DNA of 64,000 bases from the NCBI GenBank assembly GCA_019752015.1, contig JAIEMQ010000001.1:1-64000 (forward strand). Reading direction: 5' to 3'. A program made the translations under genes and the position numbers. The DNA is from Cyanobacteriota bacterium. GTDB lineage: Bacteria > Acidobacteriota > Vicinamibacteria > Vicinamibacterales > UBA2999. Position 1 is the first letter of the stretch. Each line of letters opens with the position of its first letter. The notes under the pieces were generated by a model. It did not search any database. It was not told where the DNA came from and saw nothing but the letters and a program-made list of their open reading frames with translations. Of the stretch, positions 1-16,651 are shown one piece after another.

Positions 1-738
1 CGTGAAACTCTGCTATGAGGTACGGACATTTCGAGCTTTTCGTTTACACGCCGAGCCGCAAACGCGCTTGTACTGGGGCTAGTGGCGCCATTCTTGAAAT
101 CGAACTTCGCTTTCTTGTATTTCTGAATCGACGGCGTCGTCGCGGTGATGACACCGCCGCGCAATTCCATTCGGCCATTTACGACATTCTGCCAGTCCGG
201 CCGGATGGCCACCCCCGCGGCGCTGCCACCGCGGTTGTGGTACTCCTTGAGGGAAGGAATCCATTTCAGGTTCTTCCTCCATTCCGTGTGTTTCTCCGTA
301 TCCACGGGTTCGAGTGGCGCGTCGATGAACTTATCTCGCACCACGGTCAGCGGAAGGTTGGCGGCCTCGATTGCAGGGAACCGGACGACGGCCTGGTCAA
401 GATTGAATTCCCTGTTCCGAGGCAGCTGCTTGGCCTTCGGCTCGTGATCGACAATGTCACCCACGATCACCTTCATCTCGGTGCCGATTTGCTTCACGTC
501 ACACGCAACCTCGAGGCCTGGCTTGGCGGCGTTCCGCGTCGTGCCGCCAGCTCTTGAGATACGCGATGTTCAGGTGATTGTCACCGGCAGTTGGCGACAC
601 ATAGGCGAAGCCGCCGGTGACCTCTATGGTGAGCGTCAGTTTAGGCCCTGATCCCACCGAAGGCTTACATGCCGCAAACGCCGTGGCGACAAACGCGACG
701 ATCGCCAACGCGCCATATATCGATCGACTTCCTGACAT
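1..738 (-). pseudogene. lipoprotein, last gene of the CHAT operon; frameshifted and cut by the window edge
   Basis: The gene opens with ATG at 738, with GAGAGGAG about 8 nt upstream. The N-terminus has a hydrophobic segment ending at a lipobox Cys (residue 24, FAAC). This frame runs to a stop near 499. From about position 555 a second minus-strand frame stays open to the window edge and reads as ordinary protein (for example GLEVACDVKQIGTEMKVIVG). One extra base near 550-556 (AAGAGCTGGCGGC) would join the two frames. The product would be an exported lipoprotein of more than 220 residues; I do not recognise its family. It lies 33 nt downstream of the CHAT gene, so it is probably the last cistron of that operon. 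Its TGGFAYV string recurs in the anti-sigma protein of the same operon. A sequencing indel is as likely as true decay. Confidence 0.6.
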
Positions 739-771
739 GGGACGACTCCTCTCTTCAGTGTGAACGGCCGC

Positions 772-3700
772 TTACTGCGCCGCCGTTCCGATCGCTACGA
801 ATGCGCCCCAGCTCTCAGGCAATGCCAGCACGGCATCGCTGCTGCGCAACAGCGCCAGTTGCGCCGCCTGTAACGCGTGAATTGCATCGCGCGACTTTAC
901 GAGTTCGCGATGGAATGCAAGTGTTAGTTGCTCGGTGGCGCGATCATCGACGTCCCATTGGCTGGCAACGACCAGCGGCACACCGCCGCCGAGAAACGGC
1001 CGCGCGATGCTGACCGCGCCCTCACCACGGGAGATGGCGCCGACGGCTGTGCTGCAAGCAGCGAGCACAACCACGCGAGTCTGCGGGAAGCGCACCCGAG
1101 CGATATCGCGGACGAACAGCGAGCGTTCTCCACCGCGATCGTCCGCAAATACGAGACGCGAGAGCGTTGGGAATTCAGGATTGGCGATCGCGTGTCCACC
1201 GAAATGCACCACATCGAACCCAGCGGCGCGTTCGAGGAACCGCTCCTTCGTTGCGGCCGGTCCCAGCAGCAGCTCATGACGAGGGTATAGTTTCGCGGCT
1301 TGCTCGACTTCCGCCTCCGCTCCGGGAAGAGCGCGCGCGCCGCCGGCGGCCGGATTGCCGATCAACAGTGCCGACGACAGCGGCTGATCTCCGCGCGGCC
1401 TTAACATTGAGCGCGCGTCGACGAAGAAGCTCGCGCTCGGCGATACGAGCAGCGCGTGGTCTTCGACCAGGTAGCGACCTGTTGACGGATTGCGCAGCGT
1501 CCCAAATGGCAATTGCTGGAGCTGGCCATCCGGCACCAGCACGACGATCGCATCCTTCGGTAGTGCCGCGACGGGTTCGACGAGCAGCGCATAAAGCCGA
1601 TCGTTTGCACGCCGATCGCGGTGATCGCGGATCGCCGCGCGATGTTCCGCCACTAAACGCGCGAGATCTGGCTCGCCGACTGCGCGCTCGACCAGGCTCT
1701 CGTGGGACGAAGTGATGGTCCAAATCAGTATCCGATCCGCGAGTACTGTGTAGTGAATCAGCACGGCCGACGCCGGTAGGCTCCCTTGGATTTCGCGCAG
1801 CGTCCGCGTCCGCGACGTCGTGGACCCCTGCGCAGTCGCCAGCAAGGCTCTCGCGCGCGCCCGCTCGGCATATTCAAATGCCTTCGCGGGGTCCTTGCGG
1901 CCAAGCTGGAGAGACACCATTTCTGGGAACAGCGACCACGATTCGTCGAAAAACGAGATCCGCAAGCTTTCGTCGCCGAGGCCCGCTTGCTGTTTCTCCA
2001 GGCTCTCGATGCCGGTTCGCAGAGCGCGTTCAGCCGTAGGCTCAGACTGCCGAGCTTCCGGCATGCGCGCCATCAGCAGGTAAAGGCCGGGCACGCGGCC
2101 CGGGTCCGTTCGACTGAAAAAGTCGATGGCGCTTTGCAGTGGTGCAGTTGACGTGCTGTCGGCGAGTTGTGCCCGAACAATGGCAAGGTCGGCGCTGAGA
2201 TAGGACTTGAGATAACCCTCCGACATTGACGCAAGCCGCTGCTCCGCGTCATGAAGCACTTGGCGCGCTTTGTCGCCGTCACCGCGACGGAGGTAAGCAA
2301 GTCCAAGTTGAATGCTCGCATCGGTCGATGCGTCAGGATTGGCCAACCCCGCTTCGCGCGTCGCCGCTTCCTGGAATAACAGCGCAGCTTCGTTTAGATG
2401 CTGCCGCGCCGCGAAGAGTGCGGCGTTGTACAACATCGAATAGCGGCGAATCGGGCGCCGGATCCGATGAATGTTCTCGAGCGTACGACCGATATAGGTC
2501 CAACTTTCGTTCGGTTCACCAAGCATCCGAAGCGCATCCGCGATCGACGAGTACAGGCTGACGGCAGATTCATATCGGATCGCAGCTTCATGCTGCGCGA
2601 CGCTCTCGCGAAAGGCCTGTAACCCTTCACTCAGTCGCCATTGTTTGTTGAATGACTGGCCGTGGACCTCGAGAGCACGAGCCAACACCCCGGTGTAGCC
2701 ACGAGTGCGCGCTTCGTTCTCGACTCGCGCAAGACGAATGTCCGCCTCCCTGAAGCGTCCTTCGAACCAATCGACCCCCGCGAGCTGCCCTTCGGCTGAC
2801 ACGCGATATGGAGCGCCGAGCTTGGCGAAGGCGTCGATTGCATTCGAAAACGACGTGCGCGCCTCAGCGACGTGAACGGCGGCAAACTGGCGTCGTCCAT
2901 CCATCAACACCGCATGAGCACGAGTCAGAGCGGCGCCATGCTTGCGCCACGCTGCGACCTCGTCGCGCATCATCGGATCTCGAGTCACCTCGAGAATCGC
3001 GTCTGCGACTATCACCGCGTGGGGTAGGGCTTTTTGGTCCGTAAAAAGGTTCTCTTCGAGGAATTCGATCACGGCCTCGGGATAAAGGCGGGTCGTTTCC
3101 TTGACGTAGGCGACGTCACCGGCCTCGAGTCTTGCGAGCAGTTCCTTGCGTCTCGAATCCCATTTGTTGCGCGCGTCGTCGATCGGTCGATCGTTGTTCG
3201 CCTCTTGCGTTGCGGCACTGCGCCATGCCTGATCTTTTTCGCTGGCCGCGTATTCCGACCATGGCGCCGGCGATCCGGTGAACGGCGCCAGCCCGTCCCG
3301 GGCCATCGCACGATTAAAGAGCGCATCGTTCGTACGCGCAATCTTCAACGACTTCTCAGCCGCTTCGAGCGCCCTCGCGAGGTATTCGATCTTCCGGTTC
3401 GGCGTCCGTTCTGCTTTTGCCAGGTATGCCGCGCTTAGATCGCTCCACGGTGCGGCATCAGTCATTTGAGACGCGGCGTCTTCAATGGTCGTGATCGCGC
3501 GATCGATGTCGCCTTGAATCAGGTAGCCAACACCGAGATCAGCTTGTGCTTGAGGAGTGGGATTCTCTGTTGCACGCTTTTCTAGCAGCGCGATCGCAAT
3601 GCGCGTATCGGGCGATAGTTCGGGAACGCGATCGCCGGCCGCTCGCGTGGGGCCCGTCTTCGAAGGTTGGAAGCCGCCGGAGAGGCGTGCGCGGAAGGGG

Positions 3701-3828
3701 AGCGTAGTTGAGACGGCCGCCGCGAGCTCCTGCCGTGTGGACGCAGGCGTATCCGGCCGGCATGCGCTCGACGCCGCGAGCGTAACCAGCCCGGCAATAA
3801 CGAGCGCACTACGACCGGCAAGCCGCAT
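772..3828 (-). CDS. TPR-CHAT (caspase-like) lipoprotein
   Basis: A 1018-residue exported lipoprotein; the signal peptide ends at lipobox Cys 23 (AASSAC). Residues ~60-700 are alpha-helical TPR-like repeats. The C-terminal ~290 residues form a CHAT domain, a caspase/separase-clan protease fold. The expected catalytic dyad is visible: His about 879 in VVHFGGHA and Cys about 925 in VLAACSTAVG, followed by the typical GEGAVSIARPFLGGGVPLVV region. CHAT proteins cleave partner proteins, and the TPRs would bind the partner. The lipobox predicts that it works outside the cytoplasmic membrane. The gene lies 12 nt downstream of the anti-sigma gene, and residues ~45-125 resemble the outer domain of that protein, which suggests a shared ligand or a direct contact. 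Domain assignment is firm; the substrate is unknown. Confidence 0.85.
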   Translation of the reverse strand: MRLAGRSALVIAGLVTLAASSACRPDTPASTRQELAAAVSTTLPFRARLSGGFQPSKTGPTRAAGDRVPELSPDTRIAIALLEKRATENPTPQAQADLGVGYLIQGDIDRAITTIEDAASQMTDAAPWSDLSAAYLAKAERTPNRKIEYLARALEAAEKSLKIARTNDALFNRAMARDGLAPFTGSPAPWSEYAASEKDQAWRSAATQEANNDRPIDDARNKWDSRRKELLARLEAGDVAYVKETTRLYPEAVIEFLEENLFTDQKALPHAVIVADAILEVTRDPMMRDEVAAWRKHGAALTRAHAVLMDGRRQFAAVHVAEARTSFSNAIDAFAKLGAPYRVSAEGQLAGVDWFEGRFREADIRLARVENEARTRGYTGVLARALEVHGQSFNKQWRLSEGLQAFRESVAQHEAAIRYESAVSLYSSIADALRMLGEPNESWTYIGRTLENIHRIRRPIRRYSMLYNAALFAARQHLNEAALLFQEAATREAGLANPDASTDASIQLGLAYLRRGDGDKARQVLHDAEQRLASMSEGYLKSYLSADLAIVRAQLADSTSTAPLQSAIDFFSRTDPGRVPGLYLLMARMPEARQSEPTAERALRTGIESLEKQQAGLGDESLRISFFDESWSLFPEMVSLQLGRKDPAKAFEYAERARARALLATAQGSTTSRTRTLREIQGSLPASAVLIHYTVLADRILIWTITSSHESLVERAVGEPDLARLVAEHRAAIRDHRDRRANDRLYALLVEPVAALPKDAIVVLVPDGQLQQLPFGTLRNPSTGRYLVEDHALLVSPSASFFVDARSMLRPRGDQPLSSALLIGNPAAGGARALPGAEAEVEQAAKLYPRHELLLGPAATKERFLERAAGFDVVHFGGHAIANPEFPTLSRLVFADDRGGERSLFVRDIARVRFPQTRVVVLAACSTAVGAISRGEGAVSIARPFLGGGVPLVVASQWDVDDRATEQLTLAFHRELVKSRDAIHALQAAQLALLRSSDAVLALPESWGAFVAIGTAAQ

Positions 3829-3840
3829 GACTCTCTGCCT

Positions 3841-4677
3841 CTAAGGTTGGCTGAGTATACGCAAGTGCGCGCGCGCTTCGTCGGCCCATCCCGAGCCGTC
3901 GTCCACCGCCAGGTACGCCTGCCATGCAATGCGCGCGTCGTTGTTCTGGCCGGACGCCTGCAGCGCCAGTGCGCGGTTGAAGAGTGCCTCGGGCATCAGC
4001 CGATCGACCTCGAGCGCGCGATTGGCCGCCGCGAGCGCCTTGGACGCATCGTCGGTCGAACCACTCGCCGCCGAACGCGCCAGGTATGCCGCAGCCAGGT
4101 CGCTGAGAATCTTGGAATCGGTGGGCCGGAGTTGCGAGTGGGCTTCGAGGATGTCGATGGCGTGATTCGGATCACCGCTGATGAGCGCCGCGGTGGCCGC
4201 AACGGGCTTCGCGGCATATTGCTTTTCAATCTCCGCAATCGCGATTCGAACATCCGGCGCCAGGTTCGCATCATTGGCGCCGCGCACCGGTCCGCGCACC
4301 GGCGCGTAGGCGAAGCCGCCGGTGAGCCGCGGCTCGAACGCGCGCGTGGTCCCGACCGCGGTGACCAGCGCAGTGAGCGCGCGCTCGTCGCCGTTCGCGC
4401 CGAACGGACGGAACACGTTGACCGCCAGAACGATTACCGCCGCCGCGGCCAGCCCGCCCGCGATTTGCCACGTCTTGCGCCTCGGCCGAAAGGTGACGAC
4501 GTTGGTTTGCGGCGCGGCCGTCACGATCGTGCTCGCCGCCTCGGTGAAGACGAAGTAACACGTTTCGCAGGTCGCGAGATGCTCGGCAATCGTCTCGCGT
4601 TCCCGATCCTTCAGACGGTCCTCGACAAACGCGCCAATCGTCTCGAGCGAGGGGCACGTGCCACCGTTAAGCTTCAT
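3841..4677 (-). CDS. membrane anti-sigma factor, zinc-finger N-terminus with TPR-like outer domain
   Basis: A 278-residue protein. The N-terminus has the zf-HC2 anti-sigma signature H33-x3-C37-x2-C40 (EHLATCETC). One transmembrane helix follows at about 71-89 (IAGGLAAAAVIVLAVNVF), then a ~185-residue extracytoplasmic part made of TPR-like helices. ATG at 4677 overlaps the sigma stop (ATGA), the usual sign of translational coupling; an in-frame GTG at 4692 with AAAGGGA upstream is an alternative start. The expected role is to hold the sigma factor at the membrane until a signal is sensed outside. The segment RLTGGFAYAPVRGP followed by DVRIAIAEIEKQ is closely matched by RLSGGFQPSKTGP and DTRIAIALLEKR in the CHAT lipoprotein encoded next, so the two proteins share a domain. 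Confidence 0.85.
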   Translation of the reverse strand: MKLNGGTCPSLETIGAFVEDRLKDRERETIAEHLATCETCYFVFTEAASTIVTAAPQTNVVTFRPRRKTWQIAGGLAAAAVIVLAVNVFRPFGANGDERALTALVTAVGTTRAFEPRLTGGFAYAPVRGPVRGANDANLAPDVRIAIAEIEKQYAAKPVAATAALISGDPNHAIDILEAHSQLRPTDSKILSDLAAAYLARSAASGSTDDASKALAAANRALEVDRLMPEALFNRALALQASGQNNDARIAWQAYLAVDDGSGWADEARAHLRILSQP

Positions 4678-5654
4678 CGGCTCTGCCGCCACGATGTCCC
4701 TTTCCGGTCGGACGCGTTCCCCTGGGTTGTCAGCCCCGTGTCCGGCTCCTGGTCAGTCTCAAACCATTCCATAGTTGGTGCATTGAGCAGCGCGTCGATG
4801 TCGGCGCGGGAGATGCCTTCCGCCTCCATGGCGACGCGAATCGTCTTCTTGATCTGGTCGACGGTCCGGTAGAGCGGCCGCTGCACCAGATGCAGCGCGC
4901 GCGCGATATCCGAGATGGCGACGCCGTCTTCGAACAACATCTTCACGATCAGCTGCTGGATGGCGGGCAGATCCTGCCGCGCGCGATCGAGCGCGGCCTG
5001 CACGCGCTTGGCGAGAAAATCCCGCTCGGCTTTCAGCACGTTGTCGTCGGCGCCTGGACCGGGGTTCGGTATCTCGGCCGCCTCGTCTTCAGGCACGAGC
5101 CGCCGGGACGGGCCGCGCCCCGACAACGTGTCGCAAAACGCGCGCAGCCTGGCATCGAGCTCGATCTGGTGATTGACGCGCAGCATCTCGATGGTCTGGT
5201 CGATGGTCCAGCCATCACGCACCACGCAGCGCTCGATCAGGATCGCCGTCTTGCCCAGCCGGCGCGCCTCGGTCGACGGCCGCCAGCGTCCCCACATCTG
5301 ATTGCGGAAATCCAGGAACACGCGCTGCACCACCACGTTGATGTAGGTCGGCAGCGCGCAGCGTCCTTCGAACTTGCGCAGCACTTCGTAATTGCGCTCG
5401 ATGAAATGCAGCCGGACCTGCTGCGTGAAGTCGTCGGCTTCGGTGGCGCTGAGACGATGCCGGCGGCACACCTTGCCCGTCACGTCATCGATGACGGGAA
5501 GCGCCGCGAGGAAATTCGCTTCGTCGCTCACAACCGTGGGGCGAGAAGCGGTTGCGGTTGGCGTTTGGGAGGCACCATGTGCTGGCCGCGAATGACCACC
5601 GATCGGCGGCATCAGTGTCGCGCGGGGTCGCTCAGTCCGCAGATTATCCGTCAT
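4674..5654 (-). CDS. ECF-like RNA polymerase sigma factor
   Basis: 326 residues from ATG 5654; an in-frame GTG at 5675 would add seven. A sigma-2-like region (ATEADDFTQQVRLHFIE, then LPTYINVVVQRVFLDFRNQ) and a C-terminal sigma-4 helix-turn-helix (LFEDGVAISDIARALHL) are visible. They are separated by a linker of about 100 residues, longer than in a typical ECF factor of ~190. The protein should direct polymerase to a small regulon under control of the anti-sigma factor, whose start codon overlaps this stop. The kinase gene ends only about 33 nt upstream, so all these genes are probably one transcript. No promoter could be matched, because the target motif of this family is not known to me. Confidence 0.8.
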   Translation of the reverse strand: MTDNLRTERPRATLMPPIGGHSRPAHGASQTPTATASRPTVVSDEANFLAALPVIDDVTGKVCRRHRLSATEADDFTQQVRLHFIERNYEVLRKFEGRCALPTYINVVVQRVFLDFRNQMWGRWRPSTEARRLGKTAILIERCVVRDGWTIDQTIEMLRVNHQIELDARLRAFCDTLSGRGPSRRLVPEDEAAEIPNPGPGADDNVLKAERDFLAKRVQAALDRARQDLPAIQQLIVKMLFEDGVAISDIARALHLVQRPLYRTVDQIKKTIRVAMEAEGISRADIDALLNAPTMEWFETDQEPDTGLTTQGNASDRKGTSWRQSR

Positions 5655-5687
5655 GGGTAAGGCGCTCACAATCACCGCTGCATAGGA

Positions 5688-6575
5688 TTAGACGGACACG
5701 CGATCCTCGTTTTCCACGGCCACCGGCACCCGCCTGCGGCGGAGGGGTCTGAGGGCCGCCTCCAGCTCCTTCGCCGACCGGTACCGGCCGGCCGGATCGA
5801 GCGCCAGGCAGCGATCCACAACCGCGCGAATTGGGCCGTGAACGAGCGATTCCATGCGAGTGCGCTTGTCGACGAGGATGTTGGCGGCAACCTCGTACGG
5901 CGTGCCGCCGATGAAGGGCCGGCGGCCGGCGATCATTTCAAACAGCAGCACGCCCAAGGCCCAGATGTCCGATTGCACGGAAGCCGGCTGTCCGCGAATG
6001 ATCTCCGGCGCCATGTAGGGCACGGTGCCCGCCGCGCCGCTCGACGGAGACAATCTCGTCGACTCGATCTCGGCCTTGCGCATTCCTGCATCGCTTCGAA
6101 CGGCGAGGCCGAAATCGAGAATCGTGACGTGGCCATTGGGGCCGACCATGATGTTCGAGCTCTTCAGATCGCCGTGGATCACGCCGCGGTCGTGGGCGTG
6201 CGACACCGCCGACACGATCTGGCGCGCGAAGTCGAGGGCGGTCGTGATCGAGATCGACCGGCGCCCCCGGATCACCTTCGACAGCGGGATGCCCTTGACG
6301 TGCTCCATTACCAGGAATGGCTCCTCACCGAGGTAGTCCACGCCGTGAATAGTGCAGATCGAAGGGTGATCGAGTGACGCGGCAAGCCGCGCTTCGCGCA
6401 CCAGTTCCTGCGGACGCTGGCGCCGTGGATCGACCAGCTTGATCGCCACGGTGCGCTGCAGGGCCGTATCGCGCGCCAGGTAGACCTGGCCCATGCCGCC
6501 GCTGCCAAGGACACCGTCAATGCGGTAGCGGGCGACACGATCTCCAATCTTGAGGGGCGAGGGGCTCTGCGTCAT
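5688..6575 (-). CDS. cytosolic Ser/Thr protein kinase (Hanks type), non-RD
   Basis: A 295-residue single-domain kinase with no transmembrane or sensor tail. The glycine loop GSGGMGQVYLA, lysine in VAIKL, catalytic loop HGDLKSSNI, DFG, and APE in YMAPEI are all present, and the C-lobe is complete (DIWALGVLLFEM, then RPFIGGTPYE). The usual HRD arginine is Gly, so it is a non-RD kinase, and activation-loop phosphorylation may not be needed. It is the first gene of the minus-strand sigma/anti-sigma/CHAT operon. By analogy with other kinase-linked ECF systems, it may phosphorylate the sigma or anti-sigma factor; that is inference. No strong ribosome-binding site is visible before ATG 6575. Confidence 0.85.
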   Translation of the reverse strand: MTQSPSPLKIGDRVARYRIDGVLGSGGMGQVYLARDTALQRTVAIKLVDPRRQRPQELVREARLAASLDHPSICTIHGVDYLGEEPFLVMEHVKGIPLSKVIRGRRSISITTALDFARQIVSAVSHAHDRGVIHGDLKSSNIMVGPNGHVTILDFGLAVRSDAGMRKAEIESTRLSPSSGAAGTVPYMAPEIIRGQPASVQSDIWALGVLLFEMIAGRRPFIGGTPYEVAANILVDKRTRMESLVHGPIRAVVDRCLALDPAGRYRSAKELEAALRPLRRRRVPVAVENEDRVSV

Positions 6576-6681
6576 GTCCGTGCAACCGATGAGACGGTCA
6601 CTGCACGGTGTTTTCCCAGTTACACTAGGCCTCGAAAACGGCCCGTATTTCTAAGGAAATCTAAGGAAAAAGGAGTCATTC

Positions 6682-7131
6682 ATGTCTTGGATCGCCCTGG
6701 CCTTTGGCGCGGCACTCTCCTGGGGGATGTATGGCGCGTCGCTGCACCGCGGACAGCTCGCGCTCGGCAGCCCGATGCGCGCGTTGTTGTGCGTCGGCGC
6801 CGCGTATTTTCTGATTGGCGTGCTGGTTCCGGTCGGCGTGCTGTCGTCGCAGGGCGAGCTGCGCAATTTCAACGCGACCGGCACGACCACGGCGACGATC
6901 GCCGGCGCGCTGGGCGCGATCGGCGCGGTGTTCATCATCTTCGCGTTCAGGAACGGCGGCTCGCCGACCTACGTGATGCCGATCGTCTTCGGCGTCGCGC
7001 CGCTCGTGAACGTGCTGACCACGATGATCATGCATCCCCAGAAATCTTCGGTTAATCCGTTGCTATACCTCGGATTTTTGTTAACGGCCGCCGGAGCCGG
7101 AATGGTGTTGTACTTCAGGCCACAGAGTTAG
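6682..7131 (+). CDS. small EamA/DMT-like membrane protein
   Basis: 149 residues with four or five hydrophobic helices (for example ALFGAALSWGMYG-like start, ALLCVGAAYFLIGVLVPVGV, TIAGALGAIGAVFIIFAF, LLYLGFLLTAAGAGMVLYF). Length and pattern fit a half-size drug/metabolite-transporter (EamA) fold, which would dimerise. ATG 6682 is preceded by AAGGAG at a good distance. The stop is separated from the next ATG by two bases, so it is probably cotranscribed with the propeller gene. Substrate unknown. Confidence 0.7.
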   Translation: MSWIALAFGAALSWGMYGASLHRGQLALGSPMRALLCVGAAYFLIGVLVPVGVLSSQGELRNFNATGTTTATIAGALGAIGAVFIIFAFRNGGSPTYVMPIVFGVAPLVNVLTTMIMHPQKSSVNPLLYLGFLLTAAGAGMVLYFRPQS

Positions 7132-7133
7132 CC

Positions 7134-8603
7134 ATGAAAAACGTCGTCGCGCTGGTCGTCATCCTGAAGCTGTCCGCCGTCACGGTGGGATTCGCCCAAC
7201 ACTGGCCCCACTGGCGGGGACCGTCTCACGACGGCGTCAGCACGGAAAAGAATCTGCCGGATACGTGGAGCGCCACGTGCGCCGATTCGGCTGATGCATA
7301 TGACGCGACGATGGGCGTGCCCCCCGTAGCCTTGGAGGAGGGAGGCCCGTCTGCGAATGGCGACGCAGAAGACCAGCGCGGCGGCCAACGTCCGGCGGGC
7401 AGTAACTTCGAGGGACGTCCGCTCGTCCCGACCGTCTGCGACAACATCCAGACGAAGGGCATCTCGTGGAAGTTGCCGCTCCCGGCGTATAGCGGCTCGA
7501 CGCCGATCATCTGGGGCGACACGATCTTCCTCAACGTCGCGACTGGAACGAATACCGGCGAGCTCGAGCTGTGGGCGATCGATCGCAACAAGCGCGCGAT
7601 CGCGTGGAAGCGGCCGCTCGCCGCGACCAACAACATGCAGCGCAAGCAGAACATGTCCACGCCGTCGCCGGTGACCGACGGCAAATACGTGTGGGTGATG
7701 ACGGGCGTCGGCATCCTCAAGGCGTTCGACTTTGCCGGCAAGGAAATCTGGATGCGCGACATCCAGGCGGACTACGGCCGCTTCGGCTTGAACTGGGGTT
7801 ATGCCAACACGCCGCTCCTGAAGGGCGACGCGCTCTACGTGCCGGTGCTGCACGGCATGAAGACCGACGATCCGTCGTACATCCTCAAGATCGACAAGAT
7901 GAGCGGCAAGACGATCTGGCGCGTCGAGCGTCCGAATCCGGCTGTCTACGAATCGCCGGATGCCTACATCACGCCGGCGTGGATCGAGGCGAACGGCCGC
8001 GCCGAATTGATCATCACCGGCGGCGATGTTGTTTCCGGTCACGATCCCGCGACGGGCAAGGAATACTGGCGCGCGGACGTGCTCAATCCCCAGCGCAACG
8101 GCGCCTATCGCATTGTCGCGTCGCCGACGATCGTCAACAACGTGATCATCGCGCCGACGCGCGTCAATCCGCTGGTGGCGATGAAGCCCGGTGGCAGCGG
8201 CGACGTGGCGAAGACGCACGTGATGTGGACATTTACGCAGGGACCCGATGTGCCGACGCCGGTCAGCGACGGCAAGCTGCTGTATGTCGTGCGCGACAAC
8301 GGCATCGTGCACGCACTCGACGTCAACACCGGCAACATTGTCTACGGTCCGGTGCGGCTGCCGTCAGGCACCTACAGCGCGTCGCCGATCCTGGCGGACG
8401 GAAAGATCTACGTGACGACGGAAGAAGAGGGATTGACCACGGTGTTCCGCGCCGGTCCGAAGTTCGAAATCATTTCCTCGAACCGGCTGCTCAACGACTG
8501 CGCGCCGTACTGCTTGAGTACCGTCGCGATCTCCGACGGTCAGCTCTTCATGCGCACGTCGTCGTTCTTGTGGGCGATCGGCGAGAGGAAACCGGCGAAG
8601 TAA
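7134..8603 (+). CDS. secreted PQQ-type beta-propeller protein with an inserted segment
   Basis: 489 residues with an N-terminal signal peptide ending near VGFAQ, then HWPHWRGPSHDGV, the common start of secreted PQQ-like propellers in this phylum. WRG/W-type blades recur (IIWGDTIFLNV, YVWVMTGVGILKAFD, LLYVVRDNGIVHALD). No dehydrogenase active-site set is evident, so binding or scaffolding is as likely as PQQ-dependent oxidation. Between LPDTWSA (residue ~46) and GISWKLPLP (~110) lies about 55 residues of unrelated, low-complexity sequence rich in Asp, Gly and Pro. This looks like an in-frame insertion where homologous propellers usually have only a few residues. It is convergent with the second propeller gene. 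Confidence 0.8.
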   Translation: MKNVVALVVILKLSAVTVGFAQHWPHWRGPSHDGVSTEKNLPDTWSATCADSADAYDATMGVPPVALEEGGPSANGDAEDQRGGQRPAGSNFEGRPLVPTVCDNIQTKGISWKLPLPAYSGSTPIIWGDTIFLNVATGTNTGELELWAIDRNKRAIAWKRPLAATNNMQRKQNMSTPSPVTDGKYVWVMTGVGILKAFDFAGKEIWMRDIQADYGRFGLNWGYANTPLLKGDALYVPVLHGMKTDDPSYILKIDKMSGKTIWRVERPNPAVYESPDAYITPAWIEANGRAELIITGGDVVSGHDPATGKEYWRADVLNPQRNGAYRIVASPTIVNNVIIAPTRVNPLVAMKPGGSGDVAKTHVMWTFTQGPDVPTPVSDGKLLYVVRDNGIVHALDVNTGNIVYGPVRLPSGTYSASPILADGKIYVTTEEEGLTTVFRAGPKFEIISSNRLLNDCAPYCLSTVAISDGQLFMRTSSFLWAIGERKPAK

Positions 8604-8631
8604 CTCAAGACCTCAAGACCTCAAGACCTCA
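8604..8631. repeat. tandem 8-bp repeat (CTCAAGAC) between convergent stops
   Basis: Three and a half copies of CTCAAGAC fill the whole gap between the stop of the forward propeller gene (8603) and the stop of the reverse propeller gene (8629-8631). The same unit recurs at 28155-28198. Confidence 0.85.
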
Positions 8632-9852
8632 GTACGACCAGACCGTCAGCTTGTCGACGTCCTTGACGATGATGTTGCGGCCGGCGAATGCGGGATGCGC
8701 CCACATTGCCGAGTCGGCCACCGTGTAGCGCTTCACTTCCTCGAATGCCGTCGTGCTCGGCTTTGCGACGATCAGCTCGCTGTTGGTCGTGCTGATCAAG
8801 AGCTGATTGCCGGCGCGGACGATCGATGCGTTCTCCGCTTCGCGGCCCTTACCCTGCCACAGCGTCTTGCCCGTGGCCGCATCGATCGCGAAGAACTGGC
8901 CGCGGTTCTTGTTCGACAGTCCGAAGATCGTCGAGCCATTCGCGGCCGGCGAGCTCATATACATCGAGATCCGATCGTTGCTCCATCGCGGCGTCGCCGT
9001 CCATTTGCCGCCGCTGTTCGTGATGGCGTAACCGATCGTCGGGTTGTCGAGTCCGGCGGAGATCAACAGGTCGCCGACGATCAGCGGCGTGACGATGTTT
9101 TGTCCGTACGGCGTCTTGAGCGGCGCTTCCCAGAGCAGCTTGCCGTCGGCGGCGGAGACGCCAATCACCTTGTTCTGCGATTGCGTGATGATCTGCCGCG
9201 TGCCGGCGATCGTCGCGATGATCGGCGACGTGTACCCTGGACCGTCGCCGGTCCACTGCCACTTCACCGTGCCGGCCGCCGCATCCATCGCGGTCAACGC
9301 GCCGGCGTTGTTGCCGCCGAGAAATGCGATCACGTTCGCGCCATCGGCGATCGGTGAGCTCGACGTGCCGTACTCCTGCACGGGCTTCTTGGCGGGCTTT
9401 CTCCACAGCAGCTTTCCCGTAGCGAGAGCGTGCGCGGAGAAAATTCCGCTGATGCCGAACGTGAAGACGCGGCCGTTCGCGATCAGCGGCGTGGATTTCG
9501 GCCCGGGGCCGTGACCGGTCGCGGCTGGATTCATCGTGTATGGCGCGTCGACGCCGTCCTGCCACAGCTGCTTGCCCGACTCGAGATCGTACGCCGTCAC
9601 GACCTCGCGATTGGCCTGGCGCGAGTGCACGACCACGCGATTGCCGGAGACGACCGGCGATGCGTGGCCGGCGCCGACGGTGGCCTGCCATTTCTTCGTC
9701 AGCTGCGCGGGCCATGTGGCCGGCGCCGTGAAGCTCGACGCGACGCCATCACGCGCCGGTCCGCGCCACTGCGGCCAGTCCGCTCCAGGCTTCTGAGCAA
9801 GGATCGAAATCGAAAACGTAACAATCGCGAGGACGGTGATCAGTGTTTTCAT
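8629..9852 (-). CDS. secreted PQQ-type beta-propeller protein
   Basis: 407 residues from ATG 9852, which overlaps the stop of the upstream permease (ATGA). The signal peptide is MKTLITVLAIVTFSISILAQ. The mature part begins DWPQWRGPARDGV and shows repeated propeller blades (SGNRVVVHSRQ, LIANGRVFTFGISGIFSAHAL, SGKQLWQDGV, TGKTLWQGKG). It is a paralogue of the propeller at 7134-8603 but lacks that protein's insertion. The longer open frame upstream overlaps the permease and is not coding. Translational coupling to the permease suggests a shared envelope function; no catalytic residues were identified. Confidence 0.85.
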   Translation of the reverse strand: MKTLITVLAIVTFSISILAQKPGADWPQWRGPARDGVASSFTAPATWPAQLTKKWQATVGAGHASPVVSGNRVVVHSRQANREVVTAYDLESGKQLWQDGVDAPYTMNPAATGHGPGPKSTPLIANGRVFTFGISGIFSAHALATGKLLWRKPAKKPVQEYGTSSSPIADGANVIAFLGGNNAGALTAMDAAAGTVKWQWTGDGPGYTSPIIATIAGTRQIITQSQNKVIGVSAADGKLLWEAPLKTPYGQNIVTPLIVGDLLISAGLDNPTIGYAITNSGGKWTATPRWSNDRISMYMSSPAANGSTIFGLSNKNRGQFFAIDAATGKTLWQGKGREAENASIVRAGNQLLISTTNSELIVAKPSTTAFEEVKRYTVADSAMWAHPAFAGRNIIVKDVDKLTVWSY

Positions 9853-12800
9853 TCGCTCTTGATGGCTGTTAGAACCGGTGTGCGAGACGTGATTCTGATC
9901 GCGGCCAGCGCCGCGATCGCCCCCGTCACGAACACCGCGAGGAGCAGTCCTCCTAAATTGATCAGCGGCACCGACTGGGCGCGATCTCGCAACGCTGGAA
10001 CAATCGCGACGATAGCGCAGCCCGCGCCGAGGAGCAATCCTCCTGTGACGAGCGCCAGTCCCTCCGACAGCACCATGCTGCGGACGTCGGCGGGCGAGTA
10101 GCCGACCGCGCGGAGCAGGCCGATCTCGCGACGGCGCTCGAGCACGTTGCGCGCGAGCACCGCGCCGAGTCCGACGGTGCCGAGCAACAACCCGAGTGAG
10201 CCGAGCGCCTGGAACGTTGCGAGGTAGGTGTTCTCGACCTGGTGATACGCCGCCCATCGCTCGCGCGTGTCGATCACGTCGACGCCGAAGTCGGACAGGC
10301 GGTCCTCGAGGTGCGTCGTGAGCGCGGCGCGGTTCTCCGAGGGCGTGTCGATCATCCAGACGCGATAACCCTCCTGCTTTGGAAAGAGTTTGATGAATGC
10401 CGCCTCGCCGATGATCAGCTCCGATTGCAAGAAGCTGTCGGCCAGCGCACCGACAATGCGCAGCTTCACCGGACCGCTGCCCTCCGGCGTGAACGTGAAA
10501 TCGCCGCCGACTCCGAGGTGCAGCACGTACATCAACGTCGTTTGATCGGCGATCGCCGCGATTGCGCCGTCATCGAATGTGCGATTGAGCAGCAGCCACG
10601 GATTCGCGATCTCCTCGGGCGACGTTGCCATCGACGAGGCAAACGAGAAGCGTGGTTGCGAGAAGAAGCGCGGCTCGGGCGCGATGATGCGCGGGTTGGT
10701 CGGGCGGTAGAGCGTGAGACAACTCGTCTCATCGCCGGGGCGCAAGCGGAAGCGCGTGATCGAGGCCATCGAGAGGATCGGATCCGCGCTCTCGAACGCC
10801 AGGCTCTCACGCCCGTCCGGCGTGTTGGGATCGTGCATCAGCGGCGCGACCGATTCGGCCATCAGCGAGAATCCGCCGGTGCCTGCGGCCGGATCGTTGC
10901 TGCCCGACACGTCCTTCTGGAAGGCGCCGACGCTGACGAGGACGAAGCTCGCGAACGCGATCAAGGCGAGGCTGAGGACGGATCGCGCCGGCCGCACCGA
11001 GGTGTGGCGGATGCCGAGGGCGAACATGCCTGCCAGTCCACGACGAAGATTGCCGGACGATCGACGGCGCCGCAGATAGATCGACGCCGCGCACAAGCCG
11101 CCGACGAGCCACGCGCCGCCGGCGCCGAAGAAGCCGCCGGTGGGGTCGATCGCGCCGGAGATCGCGGCGCCAAGCAGCGCCGCGCCGAGAACCAGCATCA
11201 GTAGGGCAATTACCCTTATCGCGACTACATTCGGGGGCTGGCCCCAAACGTAGCCGCCTTTCGGCAAGGCTACGTTTGGGGCCAGCCCCCAGATGTAGTC
11301 GCCCTTCAGGAGTGAGCGTGCGGAGCGTTTGCTCATCGCGCGGACGCCGAGCCAGAGGGCCAGCATGCCGATTGCGAACGCGCCGATCGCGCCGGCCGCC
11401 AGCAACTGCGGCGCAATGTGCAGCGTCAGATCGGTCGTGCCGACCGCGCCGAGCCACCACGTGCGCAGGCCGTAAAGGATCAGGGCGCTGTAACCAACCG
11501 CGGCGACCGTTCCGATCGCCGCGCCGATCGCGGCGAGGATCGCGCCTTCGCGCACGAACACGCCGCGAATCTTCGAAGGCGAGAACCCCATCGACGCGAG
11601 GATGCCGACTTCAGTAGTGCGTTGTTCGAGGCCCACCGCGAAAAACAGATACGCGAGCAGCAGCGCCGAGACGACGAGGAAGAAACTGAAGTAGAGGAAG
11701 TACTCACCGAAGTCGGTGGTGCCCTGCGACGCGGCGATCGCGTCGGCTCGAACGAGCCGCGCCGTGAAGCCGGCGGCGCCCGGATCGAGCGATTGCGCGT
11801 TCAGTTGAAAGTCACCGGAGACGCGCAGCGAAGACGCGTTGCCGTAACGCGATCCCCACAGCCGGCGCCCGTCGCGAAGCGTGACGATCGCCTTCGGCGC
11901 CGCGCGATAGGTGTCCCAGTAGTCTTCGTCCTGCTTCCTGACGCGCTTGAGATCGACCGGGAACGGCGGATCCCAGTCGCCGATATTTTCGGCGTCGGTG
12001 ATACCCGGATAGATCGGGGTCAGCGTCGTGTCTCCGCCGATCCCTTTCATCGGCAGGATGCCCGCACAAACGAACTTCGCACTCGATGTCGTCAGGCCGT
12101 CGGCGTCGGACCACAGAAAGTAGTCGAGCGTCACCTCGTCGCCGACCTTCGCTTTGAGATCGTCGGCGGCCCACTGGTTCAACCAGATTGGCGGCGGCGA
12201 GGCATCGCCGGTCTCGATCGGCAGATCGATCGCCGAGACGACCGAATACGGAATCTCCCGATCGCGGGCGCGGATCGTGTTCGCGACGTAGGTCAGTACC
12301 GGCTGCGTCCTCAGTCCGGCGTCCGCCACCGCCGAGCGGACGCCCTCGGCAAGCGCATCGGGAAGCAGCCCGGCGCGGGTTTCGATGATCGGCGCATTCT
12401 CCGGTGATCGGCGCGTGCGCAGCCCGAAGTCATCGAGGTCTGCCGACGGGCGAACCACTTCGTAAACCAGATCGCCGGCATCTTCGTTGAGCGAGAACAG
12501 CATCATGTTGACGCGGGCGCTCAGCTCGAGATCGTTGAACAGGCGCGACATCGGCACGTAGAGCGCGAGCACCGGCCCCTGCGACGGCGACAGCGAGAAT
12601 TCGCCGAGCGACGATCGATCCAGCACGCCTGCGACCGTCAGGCGAATGCGCACGCCGGTGCCCTCGCGGCGGCCCTGGATCGACGACAACGGAATGTCGG
12701 TCGGCTTGGCGATTCGCAGCATGATCGAATCACCGGTCTTGACGCCCAGCTCGCTCGCCAGTGCCTGGCTGATCAACGCATTGCGATTCGCCGGCGACGC

Positions 12801-13193
12801 CGTGAAGTCAACGGACGGAGGCGTGATGCCGTGGAATGCCCAGAAGCGATCGTTGATGCCGTACACCGACACGGTGCCGGCCGTGCGCCGCGTCTCCTGG
12901 CTCGACACCGCGCCGTTGATCGCGATGAGCGGCACGACGTCCTTTACCCGGGAGCCGGGAGCCGGGAGCCGGGAACCGGAAATATCATCAGCGAGCGCGG
13001 CGCGGAAAAACGTCGGCGACGTGACAATGGCGTCGGTGTTGCCGAGGCGGCCGACGGCAAGGTCGCGCAGGCTCGCGCGCACGGATTCGCCGACCAGCAA
13101 CGCACCGGCGAGCACGGCCACCGCCACGGCCACGCCAAGCACGACGAGCGCATTGGTGGCGGCGTAGTAGCGAAGGCTCGCGCGGGTGAGCAC
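9849..13193 (-). CDS. large FtsX-like ABC permease carrying two in-frame repeat insertions
   Basis: 1114 residues, with an N-terminal signal/TM helix (YYAATNALVVLGVAVAVAVL), a large extracytoplasmic MacB-like domain, FtsX helices in the middle (FLYFSFFLVVSALLLAYLFF) and a second FtsX block at the C-terminus (LGSLGLLLGTVGLGAVLARN, ERRREIGLLRAVG). The architecture is that of a LolC/MacB-type type VII ABC permease with both halves fused. Its ATPase is encoded 9 nt upstream. Two insertions stand out: a REP pair (11225-11298) encodes DYIWGLAPNV/YVWGQPPNV near residues 635-660, and a 7-bp minisatellite (12948-12980) encodes SRLPAPGSR near residue 75. Both keep the frame. Likely role: lipoprotein or outer-envelope substrate export. 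Confidence 0.9.
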   Translation of the reverse strand: MLTRASLRYYAATNALVVLGVAVAVAVLAGALLVGESVRASLRDLAVGRLGNTDAIVTSPTFFRAALADDISGSRLPAPGSRVKDVVPLIAINGAVSSQETRRTAGTVSVYGINDRFWAFHGITPPSVDFTASPANRNALISQALASELGVKTGDSIMLRIAKPTDIPLSSIQGRREGTGVRIRLTVAGVLDRSSLGEFSLSPSQGPVLALYVPMSRLFNDLELSARVNMMLFSLNEDAGDLVYEVVRPSADLDDFGLRTRRSPENAPIIETRAGLLPDALAEGVRSAVADAGLRTQPVLTYVANTIRARDREIPYSVVSAIDLPIETGDASPPPIWLNQWAADDLKAKVGDEVTLDYFLWSDADGLTTSSAKFVCAGILPMKGIGGDTTLTPIYPGITDAENIGDWDPPFPVDLKRVRKQDEDYWDTYRAAPKAIVTLRDGRRLWGSRYGNASSLRVSGDFQLNAQSLDPGAAGFTARLVRADAIAASQGTTDFGEYFLYFSFFLVVSALLLAYLFFAVGLEQRTTEVGILASMGFSPSKIRGVFVREGAILAAIGAAIGTVAAVGYSALILYGLRTWWLGAVGTTDLTLHIAPQLLAAGAIGAFAIGMLALWLGVRAMSKRSARSLLKGDYIWGLAPNVALPKGGYVWGQPPNVVAIRVIALLMLVLGAALLGAAISGAIDPTGGFFGAGGAWLVGGLCAASIYLRRRRSSGNLRRGLAGMFALGIRHTSVRPARSVLSLALIAFASFVLVSVGAFQKDVSGSNDPAAGTGGFSLMAESVAPLMHDPNTPDGRESLAFESADPILSMASITRFRLRPGDETSCLTLYRPTNPRIIAPEPRFFSQPRFSFASSMATSPEEIANPWLLLNRTFDDGAIAAIADQTTLMYVLHLGVGGDFTFTPEGSGPVKLRIVGALADSFLQSELIIGEAAFIKLFPKQEGYRVWMIDTPSENRAALTTHLEDRLSDFGVDVIDTRERWAAYHQVENTYLATFQALGSLGLLLGTVGLGAVLARNVLERRREIGLLRAVGYSPADVRSMVLSEGLALVTGGLLLGAGCAIVAIVPALRDRAQSVPLINLGGLLLAVFVTGAIAALAAIRITSRTPVLTAIKSE
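11225..11298. repeat. inverted pair of 29-bp REP elements inside the permease gene
   Basis: Two 29-bp copies, 11225-11253 and 11270-11298, lie head to head 16 bp apart. Each runs CTAC...GGGGGCTGGCCCC...GTAG or its complement, and is the same family as the arrays flanking the REP transposase at 62317-62492 and 63567-63689. They are translated in frame on the minus strand. Confidence 0.9.
12948..12980. repeat. 7-bp minisatellite (CCGGGAG) within the permease gene
   Basis: About four and a half units of CCGGGAG/CCGGGAA. On the coding (minus) strand it reads SGSRLPAPGSR, a string absent from ordinary FtsX permeases. The same repeat is at 14447-14481 in the glycosyltransferase. Confidence 0.9.
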
Positions 13194-13202
13194 AGCGTTG
13201 CC

Positions 13203-13892
<690 letters not shown>

Positions 13893-14446
13893 CCTGATAC
13901 GCCTTCAACACGCCGCTCGCCATGTGCTGCACGGTGTAGTGCCGCCGCACGCCCTCGGCGCCGGCGCGTCCGAGCGCCGCAGCCTTGGACGGATCCTTCC
14001 ACAATTCGAGAATCGCGTCGGCCACATCCGCGGGTGATTCGGACTTCGACAACACGCCGCCGCGGGTGCGCGCGATCATTTCGGGGAACGCGCCATGATT
14101 CGGCTGCACGACGGGCACGCCGCACGCCATCGCTTCGAGCAGATACAGGCCTTTCGGTTCGCGATACGGGCTCGGCACCGACAGCACGTCGATCTCGTGA
14201 AAGAAGCGCACCTTCTTCGCGCGATCGACGGCACCGCGATACACGAACTCATCGCCGAGTCCCGCTACACGCAGCGACTCCGCGACGCCTTCGAGATACG
14301 GCTTGTGTTCCGGCGCGAGGTAACCGGCCGCGAGCAAACGCGAGGGAGGTAGTCCCTTTTCCGAACGCAGGATTCGATACGCGTCCGCGAGGTTATGCAG
14401 GCCCTTCTCGGGCGCGATACGTGCGAAAAATCCAATCGCGAAGGGA

Positions 14447-14481
14447 TCCGGGAACCGGGAGCCGGGAGCCGGGAGCCGGGG
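14447..14481. repeat. 7-bp minisatellite (CCGGGAG) within the glycosyltransferase gene
   Basis: About five units of CCGGGAG/CCGGGAA, in frame, encoding PRLPAPGSR in the linker between the two Rossmann domains. It is a direct relative of 12948-12980. Confidence 0.9.
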
Positions 14482-15215
14482 AGACACGGAGAGGTCGGCC
14501 GTATTGACGCCCAAAGACGCGACGCGCACCTTCGATTCTGGAATGCGCAGGTAGTCGCGCATGAAGCGCGCGTAGTACTCGCTCACGGCGATGAACAAGT
14601 CGACATCGGCGACCTGCGCGCGAACCAGTTCGAGCGCTTCGGTGCGATACGGTTCCGGCAGTCCCTCGAGAAACAGATCCTCGCCCTGCAGCGTGATCAC
14701 CACCGGACAGCCGAGCGCGCGCTTCAGCGGTGCGGCGAGGCTGATCAACAGCGTGTAGGGGATGTTGACGATGTCGGGAGGGGGATCGGCCGAAACGAAC
14801 TCGATCAGCTTGTCGATCTCCTTGCGCTGATGGCCGTTCGGTCCGCGCAGCGTCGACACGGTCAGCGCGCCGAGCTGTTTCGGATCGACCGCGATCGAGC
14901 CGCTCGTGAAGGCCTTGATCACGTTGGGCGCATCGACGAGCGCATCGAGCAGCCGGCTGCCGCGAAACCACGACATGTGCTGCTCGAGATACACGCTGAT
15001 GCCGCCGAAGAACACCTGCTCTTGCCGGCTGACGTTTTCTTCGTCGGTGAGCGTCGGCGTGTAGAAGGGCAGCAGCGTGACGTCGTGGCCCTGCCGGATC
15101 AATTCCGCCGCCAGCGCGTTGTCGCGCAGGCAGCTGCCGCAGTACATGCTTGCGGCCCCTGCTGTCAGCGACAAAATCTTCATGCGTAATATTTTTAACT
15201 TTTAATTTTTAATTC

Positions 15216-16651
15216 TTACGCGAGCCGCTGAATGGCCCGCCGAGCGTACAGGTGCTCGAACAGATTGCCTTCGTGCGGCTGATCCCACCCGATCTGGGTC
15301 GTCGACAGCGGTCCGAAGTTCAGGCGATCGACGTGCGGCGAGGCGACGAACCGCGCGCGGAACGCAGGGTCGCTCGAGATGCAGGTCACGACCAGCGACG
15401 AGCCGAGGCAATCCGGCAGCGCGGACGCCGGTACTTCGACGACGCTCGCGAAGGGAAACAGGAATTCGCGATTGGCGAGCGGATGGTTCGCATCGCATCG
15501 AATCACGGTCGGCAACAGGTAATTGCCGCCATGTGCTGACGCCACGCGCGCCGAGCCGCGAACCGCCGCCGACACATCGCGGGCCTCGCCGCTCTCGCCC
15601 TTCATGTCTCCATCGATCGTTGCCGAGATCCGCCTGGCGGTTTCCGGATCCGCGAACGGCGCGAGCACCGCATCAGGATCGTCGGCCGCGCGCGGGGTGA
15701 TCGACGTCAGCTTCTTCGCGAGCGCTTCGGCGATCTTGTCGGCGTGCTTCGTGACCCACACGCCGGAGGCGTTCACGCACGACCGTCCGCCGTTGTTCGA
15801 CATCGACTCGGCGATCACGTCGATGTATTGCTCCCACTGATCGGCGAGGTCCGGTCCGATCACGACTTTGCTGTAGCCGGGGCCGTGCACTTCCACGCGG
15901 CCGCCCTCGGCCTTCCATCGCTTCGTCGATCCGACATCGCCGAACACCATGCCGCGGCCGGTCGATCGCAGGATCTCGTTGCCGCCGGCGTGATCGGCCG
16001 GGTAATACGCGAACACGCCCGCGGGCAATCCCGCCTTCACCCACGCGTTGATGATGCGCAGCGGCGTCCACGGCTCGGCGCTGCCCGGCTTCAGCACCAG
16101 CGGCATCTTCAACACCGGCGTCGGCGCCCACAGCGAGTGCACGCCGGGCGAGTTGCTCGGCAGCACCACGCCGAGCGCATCGGTGCGCGGGAAGAAGCTG
16201 AGCATCTGTCCGTTAACGGTTCCGTAACCGGCGTCGAGCACCGACAGATCGAGACCGCGCGTGAGTCCCGCGAGCACTTCCTCGACCCTGTCGAGGACGC
16301 CATGCACCTTGTTCATGTTGCGGCGCACGTTGCTGAACGGCATACCGGTCGTGGCCGACACCTGCTCGATGTACTGCTGCGGCGTTTGCGTGGTCCCGCT
16401 CTCGGGATCGAGCGGCAGCGTGTCGTTGAGGAAATGCCCGGCGGCGCGACCCGCCATTTTCACCAGCTCCGCGACCGGAATCTTCAGCAGCAGCTCACGC
16501 GCTTCGACCTGCTTGAGCAGATCGCGTCGAATCAGGCCGACGTTGGCCTGGCTCATCGACACGAACGGTTGACGCGTGCGGAAGTGCGGCGTCACGACCT
16601 GGTTAACGCTGCGATACGGGACGCCCCAACGCAAAATTGGTAAATGAAGCA

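Follow-up and report, generated by a model that had tools for sequence, protein, structure and literature searches.

A split DdvA-type anti-sigma/CHAT module beside an ECF-like sigma factor gene in an Acidobacteriota genome

We use a combination of profile searches, structure models and surveys of related genomes to study five minus-strand genes at the start of contig JAIEMQ010000001.1 (our C25), part of a 5.9 Mb Acidobacteriota genome (GCA_019752015.1). The window begins at the contig's first base and extends over 64 kb, and gene annotation covered window positions 1-16000. The genes encode a kinase, a sigma factor of the ECF (extracytoplasmic function) type, an anti-sigma factor, a lipoprotein with a TPR superhelix and a caspase-like CHAT domain, and a lipoprotein of a family that we call P. 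Anti-sigma factor and CHAT lipoprotein very probably constitute a split version of a module known as one chain in DdvA, the anti-sigma factor of DdvS in Myxococcus xanthus, and our explanation for the locus as a whole, held with a probability of about 0.72, is a DdvA-like sigma/anti-sigma envelope switch in split form. The system is real and recurrent; its DdvA kind is known, and what is new is that it is split, lipid-anchored and accompanied by P.

Match of the two proteins to DdvA

Two sets of comparisons carry the assignment to DdvA. A six-row profile of the anti-sigma factor (window plus five relatives) matches DdvA chain 8rot_B over residues 6-281 (E 1.2e-14). The CHAT protein's profile matches DdvA at E 2.6e-40, in an alignment where DdvA retains both the His and the Cys, and its AlphaFold2 (AF2) model (predicted template modelling score, pTM, 0.85) matches DdvA 8rw5 in Foldseek (5.6e-18) and residues 95-991 of DdvA 8rot_A in structure comparison (VIA Z 25.1, root-mean-square deviation (rmsd) 6.4 over 865 residues); 8rot is taken as the M. 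xanthus protein from the name DdvA in its title. Because the anti-sigma factor matches 6-281 and the CHAT model 95-991, the window pair reads as DdvA cut in two, with the stretch of about 95-281 present in both halves. The same duplication appears when the anti-sigma hidden Markov model (HMM) is run on the CHAT protein, where residues 3-210 match at an independent E-value (i-E) of 3.9e-46, obtained with an iterated HMM that had already absorbed such CHAT segments. Like DdvA/DdvS of M. xanthus (PDB 8rot, 8rw5), to which the match is whole-length, the pair has a zinc-type domain, one membrane segment, and an ectodomain with the fold of a TPR superhelix and CHAT; unlike DdvA, the chain is split, about 95-281 is duplicated, the outer half is a lipoprotein, a P gene follows and a kinase gene precedes. 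We speak of a split DdvA-type module and not of a DdvA because the window holds two genes and not a single polypeptide. A reading of this DNA made from the sequence alone (hereafter the sequence-only reading) knew of no precedent for the exact arrangement; an unprecedented arrangement was rejected after the Foldseek, profile and structure comparisons, DdvA being a membrane anti-sigma factor that carries CHAT.

The individual proteins largely bear out what the sequence-only reading had called them. Its zinc-finger anti-sigma factor with an outer TPR-like domain matches zf-HC2 at 2.2e-4 and 21.7 bits, slightly below the cut-off of 22.2, with the HxxxCxxC pattern present and the ligands H38, C42 and C45 invariant across the six profile rows; hydropathy peaks at residue 83, the Pfam TPR matches are weak and below their cut-offs, and the same six-row profile also finds 3hug_B (E 4e-5), which we take to be the anti-sigma factor RslA. 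Its 1018-residue TPR-CHAT lipoprotein with a His/Cys dyad has a lipobox Cys23, His879 and Cys925, and a CHAT domain scoring 188.5 bits in Pfam (2.3e-55) against a curated cut-off of 24. Its long-linker sigma factor, 333 aa, has no Pfam sigma match up to E 1 and reaches 2.2e-10 and 40.4 bits against NCBIfam TIGR02937 (cut-off 42.9), and the profile of its relatives matches solved sigma factors (best E 1.7e-7); an ECF-type sigma gene at 4674-5675 thus adjoins the anti-sigma/CHAT pair. The features of the locus are the following.

5688..6575, minus strand: Ser/Thr kinase, 295 aa, no predicted membrane segment, non-RD loop (HGD), accessory (Pkinase 3.9e-49)
4674..5675, minus strand: long-linker ECF-like sigma factor, 333 aa, sigma-2.2 EADD retained (TIGR02937 below cut-off; relatives' profile against solved sigma factors)
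3841..4692, minus strand: anti-sigma factor with zinc domain, one predicted membrane segment (about residues 74-92) and outer RLTGGF-TPR segment (zf-HC2, TPR, DdvA 6-281)
772..3828, minus strand: TPR-CHAT lipoprotein, 1018 aa, with Cys23 lipobox, RLSGGF-TPR segment (to about residue 210), helical TPR superhelix (73-667) and CHAT
3199..3822, minus strand: residues 3-210 of the CHAT protein, homologous to the outer part of the anti-sigma factor (duplicated module; anti-sigma HMM i-E 3.9e-46)
787..1602, minus strand: CHAT domain (PF12770), caspase-like; His879 codon 1194-1192, Cys925 codon 1056-1054
3..738, minus strand: P-family gene, broken (a lipoprotein here), 738-499 in one frame and 497-3 in another, cut by the contig start

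The minus-strand order at the contig end is kinase, sigma, anti-sigma, TPR-CHAT lipoprotein and P-family lipoprotein gene, with gaps of 12, 12 and 33 nt along the run in the open reading frame calls, so the five consecutive genes and the 12-33 nt gaps described earlier are found again. The fifth gene is not intact, its frame changing near 500-560 and the gene running truncated off the contig; sequencing error and real decay are indistinguishable at this break (window 3-738). The ATGA overlap that had been read between sigma stop and anti-sigma start arises only if the anti-sigma gene begins at ATG 4677, GTG 4692 being the other possible start.

That the CHAT protein and the anti-sigma factor belong together, as had been proposed, is plainest where they are one protein. 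Single chains of zinc domain, membrane segment, TPR and CHAT stand behind sigma genes in relatives, DdvA being the known example, and by our own tally anti-sigma and CHAT share one chain in 15 of 33 module-bearing relatives. The window's own genome has about ten CHAT frames, three of which (L013, L014, L015) carry the same anti-sigma-like segment in such a single chain, with a sigma gene directly before L013 and L015 and none found beside L014; for two further CHAT genes, L010 and L011, the gene order is another ECF sigma gene, a membrane protein (zf-HC2-like at L011) and then CHAT. A tree of 40 CHAT proteins requires, by parsimony, six changes each of the split and fused labels, and firm branches force at least two to three of them. 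All ten Gemmatimonadota rows are split, and all 15 fused rows are from Acidobacteriota, which has split ones too; the tree contains long branches, and the window's place in it, beside the fused L047 (94/71), is not firm. One fused anti-sigma-CHAT, L132, appears to have lost its N-terminal zinc ligands.

The predicted topology is the same in both forms. Fused chains have the zinc domain before and CHAT after their one membrane segment, and an export or anchor segment is seen in 17 of 18 split CHATs (16 of them N-terminal hydrophobic segments, the one in L103 lipobox-like; none in L098), several of which need an upstream start, often TTG or GTG. These calls rest on hydropathy and pattern predictions. 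Because a position of CHAT outside the membrane is reached in two ways, they support the outside placement made in the sequence-only reading.

Recurrence in related genomes and the P family

Homologues of the window sigma occur in 20 of 297 genomes of the phylum. In the sample found with the window sigma alone, the less biased one, CHAT lies within four genes of 14 of the 33 sigma genes, three of which (L056, L071, L076) are absent as sigma genes from the gene calls and are counted as misses. Query A3 for the genome collection derives from seven sigma genes, and because all seven have CHAT within four genes, the CHAT share of the A3 sample is inflated. The first set plus 80 added loci gave, at an HMM E-value of 1e-40 or lower, 90 distinct sigma genes from Acidobacteriota and Gemmatimonadota. 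CHAT lies within four genes of 37 of these: 13 fused, 12 with a module-bearing CHAT downstream on the same strand and 12 with CHAT in another order; the rest divide into 18 with an anti-sigma gene alone, 27 with none of these and 8 at a contig edge. Genes were called by a home-made coding score that leaves starts uncertain, and the zinc domains of L014, L015, L060 and L061 are visible only after extending the start. At 4 of the 12 split same-strand loci (L100, L103, L104, L134), the gene between sigma and CHAT is not recognised by the anti-sigma HMM.

Approached from the CHAT side, with two candidates scored per genome, a sigma gene lies within five genes at at least 17 of 31 places (24 of 297 genomes, our own tally); 3 of the 31 are not judgeable, L171 having no CHAT in its gene calls and L161 and L173 being cut by contig ends. 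For several of these sigma factors the match to the window sigma is weak (E 1e-4 to 1e-13), yet they score against general sigma models, and CHAT-bearing anti-sigma factors have therefore been paired with more than one kind of sigma. NCBIfam, run on 10 of 14 listed upstream genes, lists TIGR02937 for all ten, four above cut-off. Sigma, anti-sigma and CHAT thus recur together in relatives, and of the conserved gene order that was looked for it is the kinase that drops out; except for the kinase, the neighbourhood is more than chance. At L068, L069 and L072, a different CHAT protein of 1120-1133 aa, which lacks the shared module, stands directly before sigma with no P, and a 601-aa protein with a stretch like the anti-sigma module follows the anti-sigma gene.

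The gene directly after CHAT encodes P, a very divergent family of about 250-370 aa. Its members start in the form hh-F-x-G, with Gly11 and Cys283 invariant and His50 and Gly137 nearly so (L100 numbering, 24-row alignment A4). None of the 24 A4 members matches Pfam or NCBIfam at E 0.01, and the P profile has no convincing relative among PDB sequences. The AF2 model of the L100 protein is mainly beta (pTM 0.86, mean pLDDT, the per-residue confidence, 82). No known fold was matched by it (Foldseek best E 2.8e-3, TM-score at most 0.21 among the matches listed, the best 50); in a second look no chain among 997 aligned had Z>=2, which does not in itself prove a new fold. Nor does P match Csx30, its profile finding no Csx30 chain in PDB sequences and returning a single row, ResA, at E 0.82.

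P is found directly downstream of 29 of 33 module-bearing CHATs. Within six genes of the sigma loci it is present at all 13 fused, all 12 same-strand and 8 of the 12 other-order loci (33/37) and at none of those without CHAT (0/18, 0/27 and 0/8; 0/53). Since membership of the P set was at first decided by position downstream of CHAT, and the profile comes from genes adjacent to CHAT, the co-occurrence shows tracking and not independence. A leave-clade-out test recovered 28 of 32 P members at E 0.0021 or better and gave no match for L014p, L013p, L051p and L086p (L103p was dropped before the test); the window P gene, read through with X, is recovered at E 2.5e-6 in 1525 proteins by a profile built without it. 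Searching the 297 genomes with P gave 18 places in 11 genomes, 16 of them adjacent to CHAT. The remaining two are L058, two genes from CHAT, and L184 of the window's own genome (contig C6; L184:7107-8063), which has no CHAT or sigma in the 11.4 kb read. Outside the 90 loci, the P gene L149_11 lacks a recognised CHAT and stands behind a broken sigma/TPR-CHAT frame; there, at L149:9986-12497, a sigma frame runs into TPR-CHAT and then P, which looks like an internal deletion or a misassembly; the locus comes from a relative of the catalytically dead clade described below.

Export signals of P, judged by eye, are twin-arginine-like in L013, L014, L015, L060, L061 and L138, a lipobox in L051 and the window, and a signal peptide in L117. 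Some P genes have further protease-like neighbours. In L185 and L187, CHAT is followed by P, then a small protein, then an exported protein whose start is caspase-like, alongside another sigma-like/anti-sigma-like pair; L186 resembles them, its sigma/anti-sigma pair and caspase being assigned by eye; and at L053 a C14 caspase (Pfam 4.5e-11) adjoins P. These caspase-like genes near CHAT and P, with signal-peptide-like starts in L185-L187, may point to a two-protease chain. At L048:10240-11823, a metallopeptidase-like protein with an HEYGH motif and a weak Pfam match to PepSY follows CHAT and P on the same strand.

How the module may act, and the alternatives

In the switch that we favour, the anti-sigma factor would bind sigma in the cytoplasm through its zinc domain, cross the membrane once and end outside in the RLTGGF-TPR module. 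The separate, lipid-anchored TPR-CHAT arm has a second copy of that module, whose likeliest purpose would be docking of one half on the other. An outside signal would act on the CHAT arm and be passed on to the anti-sigma factor, and sigma would be freed; the P protein, encoded next to CHAT, would be the best candidate for a ligand or substrate. Docking, signal, proteolytic step and sigma release are steps that we infer beyond the anatomy, which sequence and structure comparison establish for the parts, the split, the shared module, the recurrent neighbourhood and the intact dyad, and predict for the topology. Control of sigma by the outer CHAT arm is likely. A cut by CHAT in the anti-sigma factor itself is a possibility to which we give distinctly less than even odds, and action of CHAT on P may be placed at the same level.

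Several observations weigh against such a switch. Of the 90 sigma relatives, 53 lack a CHAT gene in the four-gene neighbourhood (8 of them at a contig edge), and at 11 of the 31 CHAT places no sigma was seen with the window-sigma HMM or by eye. The fused proteins L014, L015, L060 and L061 have lost both catalytic residues, and these four are one clade with 100/100 support. At many loci, P has no export signal although CHAT is predicted to be outside, which disfavours P as the direct CHAT substrate at those loci; P as a uniformly exported CHAT substrate is unsupported. Finally, in E. coli it is an Asp at position +2 that keeps lipoproteins in the inner membrane; the window CHAT protein has Arg at this position after its lipidated Cys and might therefore be located on the outer membrane, separated from the anti-sigma factor.

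The alternative that fares best regards CHAT and P as a pair of effectors, CHAT being the protease and P its substrate or its guard, acting in stress or conflict, with the sigma/anti-sigma pair only switching its expression and some genomes adding the exported caspase-like protein in a cascade-like manner. The distribution of P speaks for it, in that P tracks CHAT and not sigma (33/37 sigma loci with CHAT versus 0/53 without) and that its profile matches across the 297 genomes adjoin CHAT at 16 of 18 places, as do the caspase-like runs of L185 and L187 and the C14 caspase beside P in L053. The covalent fusion of CHAT to the anti-sigma factor in 15 of the 33 module-bearing CHATs argues instead for a signalling role and not only an output, and PADLOC has no match for the window CHAT, sigma or anti-sigma factor, or for the one P protein scanned; we hold the effector pair to be a minority possibility. 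Equally tentative is a picture in which P, a fast-diverging and mainly beta protein with an invariant C-terminal Cys, would be the dedicated partner of membrane CHATs and be recognised or cut by them. Bacteria would then have a caspase pathway in the envelope, made up of CHAT, P and, in some genomes, a second exported caspase-like protein, that reports via the CHAT-bearing anti-sigma factor, and one clade would be a dead receptor of the same partner.

A somewhat less likely alternative is that the TPR-CHAT ectodomain is a non-cutting sensor arm, which would change shape on binding a ligand and use the caspase fold as a binding scaffold, sigma being freed with no cleavage by CHAT. Here the dead clade is the main argument. 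Two of its members, L014 and L015, are in the window's own genome and the other two, L060 and L061, in other genomes of its genus; all four retain the anti-sigma part and a P gene (found with the full P profile), and in L060 and L061 the sigma frame is also open, without internal stop. The sigma gene beside L015 (L015:5208-6041, contig C37) has in-frame stops, unlike its counterparts at L060 and L061. Set against this, His and Cys are both kept in 43 of 47 distinct CHAT domains, among them 29 of the 33 with the anti-sigma-like segment, and conservation of the His879 and Cys925 columns reaches 90% or more in each case across the 27 rows of alignment A5. The dyad is intact in the window, in L013 of the same genome and in L138, which the tree places as sister to the dead clade, a retention that is hard to explain without catalysis. 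The expected conservation of the dyad in homologues therefore stands for most of the family and fails in these four fused relatives; catalysis is, as far as these residues tell, retained in most members and not indispensable to the module. Because the four lost the dyad yet keep anti-sigma part and P, cutting cannot be a requirement throughout. For the window, the intact dyad favours a cut, the dead clade showing that loss is possible. The proteolytic release proposed in the sequence-only reading is reasonable, unproven, and not needed in every member.

The kinase offers a further alternative, in which it would phosphorylate and control sigma in the manner of EcfP/PknT with CHAT as a bystander. 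It is the non-RD cytosolic kinase it was taken for, with the catalytic loop HGDLKSSN in place of HRD, DFG present, no predicted membrane segment and a Pkinase match of 3.9e-49; PADLOC models of the defence kinases PD-T4-6 and mad6 match it at 6e-72 and 9e-72, probably through general kinase similarity. Its gene lies 12 nt upstream of sigma, and the same pair recurs at L077 (kinase 55% and sigma 51% identical), whose contig ends inside the sigma gene. A stand-alone kinase directly upstream of sigma is found in the window and at L077 only and in no other locus compared; the kinase upstream of sigma at L054 has a membrane segment. A conserved kinase-sigma-CHAT cassette was rejected on this count, and with it the kinase as a conserved part of the operon. 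The adjacent kinase fits the ECF43/EcfP group, whose members lack the acidic DAED-type motif in sigma-2.2 (PMC8999054, in excerpt); the window sigma retains this motif as EADD and has a dedicated zinc anti-sigma factor. Control by the kinase is improbable, and the kinase is accessory to the module.

A chance neighbourhood of unrelated genes can be set aside as extremely improbable even in a genome with about ten CHAT frames, given the fusion, the recurrent order in two phyla, the shared module, and an expectation that we estimate at roughly 2% within four genes for about ten CHATs in 5.9 Mb, against 14/33 and 30/55.

Relation to known systems

DdvS/DdvA is, we take it, the M. xanthus sigma/anti-sigma pair to which control of a CRISPR-Cas system has been ascribed. 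According to a review, one such pair drives a type III-B CRISPR-Cas system (PMC8156234, in excerpt), and DdvS is active once its anti-sigma factor DdvA has been inactivated, by a trigger not known in 2015 (PMC4374960, in excerpt). No publication on the DdvA structure was among the matches listed in our literature search, which leaves its absence from print unproven.

Craspase shares the CHAT fold, the window CHAT model matching its chain 8eey_B with Z 31.2 and rmsd 12.7 over 554 residues. Csx29, its protease, is cytosolic; the window protein has its lipobox Cys23 and the relatives have export or anchor segments, in contrast to a TPR-CHAT protein without export signal. In the type III-E Craspase/CASP system (Csx29, Csx30, CASP-sigma), a TPR-CHAT protease likewise heads a pathway ending in relief of a sigma factor, but Csx29 partners Cas7-11, and Csx30 is not described as a membrane anti-sigma factor in the excerpted text (PMC10028731). 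CalpL/CalpT/CalpS, of type III CRISPR, resembles the proposed switch in that a protease cuts an anti-sigma factor and is thought to free an ECF sigma factor, and differs in that CalpL is a Lon-type protease with a SAVED domain binding cyclic oligoadenylate (PMC11417357, in excerpt). The ECF54 group has CHAT and other peptidases near the sigma gene, with proteolytic regulation proposed, and is described, unlike the window, as being without an anti-sigma factor (PMC8999054, in excerpt). RseA and RsiW are membrane anti-sigma factors controlled from outside by proteolysis (PMC10028731, in excerpt), with the difference that the protease (DegS for RseA) is not a caspase-fold arm belonging to the anti-sigma factor. 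Only PMC10028731 turned up when literature joining the CHAT domain with ECF or anti-sigma factors was searched for, and absence from print is unproven here too.

Two CRISPR systems are thus known in which a protease cuts a sigma inhibitor (PMC10028731 and PMC11417357, in excerpt), and DdvA is a solved membrane anti-sigma factor with CHAT. The design described here is found repeatedly in both Acidobacteriota and Gemmatimonadota, where it occurs with several kinds of sigma and in fused, split and catalytically dead versions. P, which lies no more than six genes away in each of the 25 loci with CHAT after sigma on the same strand, offers an initial candidate for the missing ligand or substrate. 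Because the module is split, its protease half can be removed, mutated or restored without touching the anti-sigma factor, and the question of whether CHAT cuts becomes a testable one.

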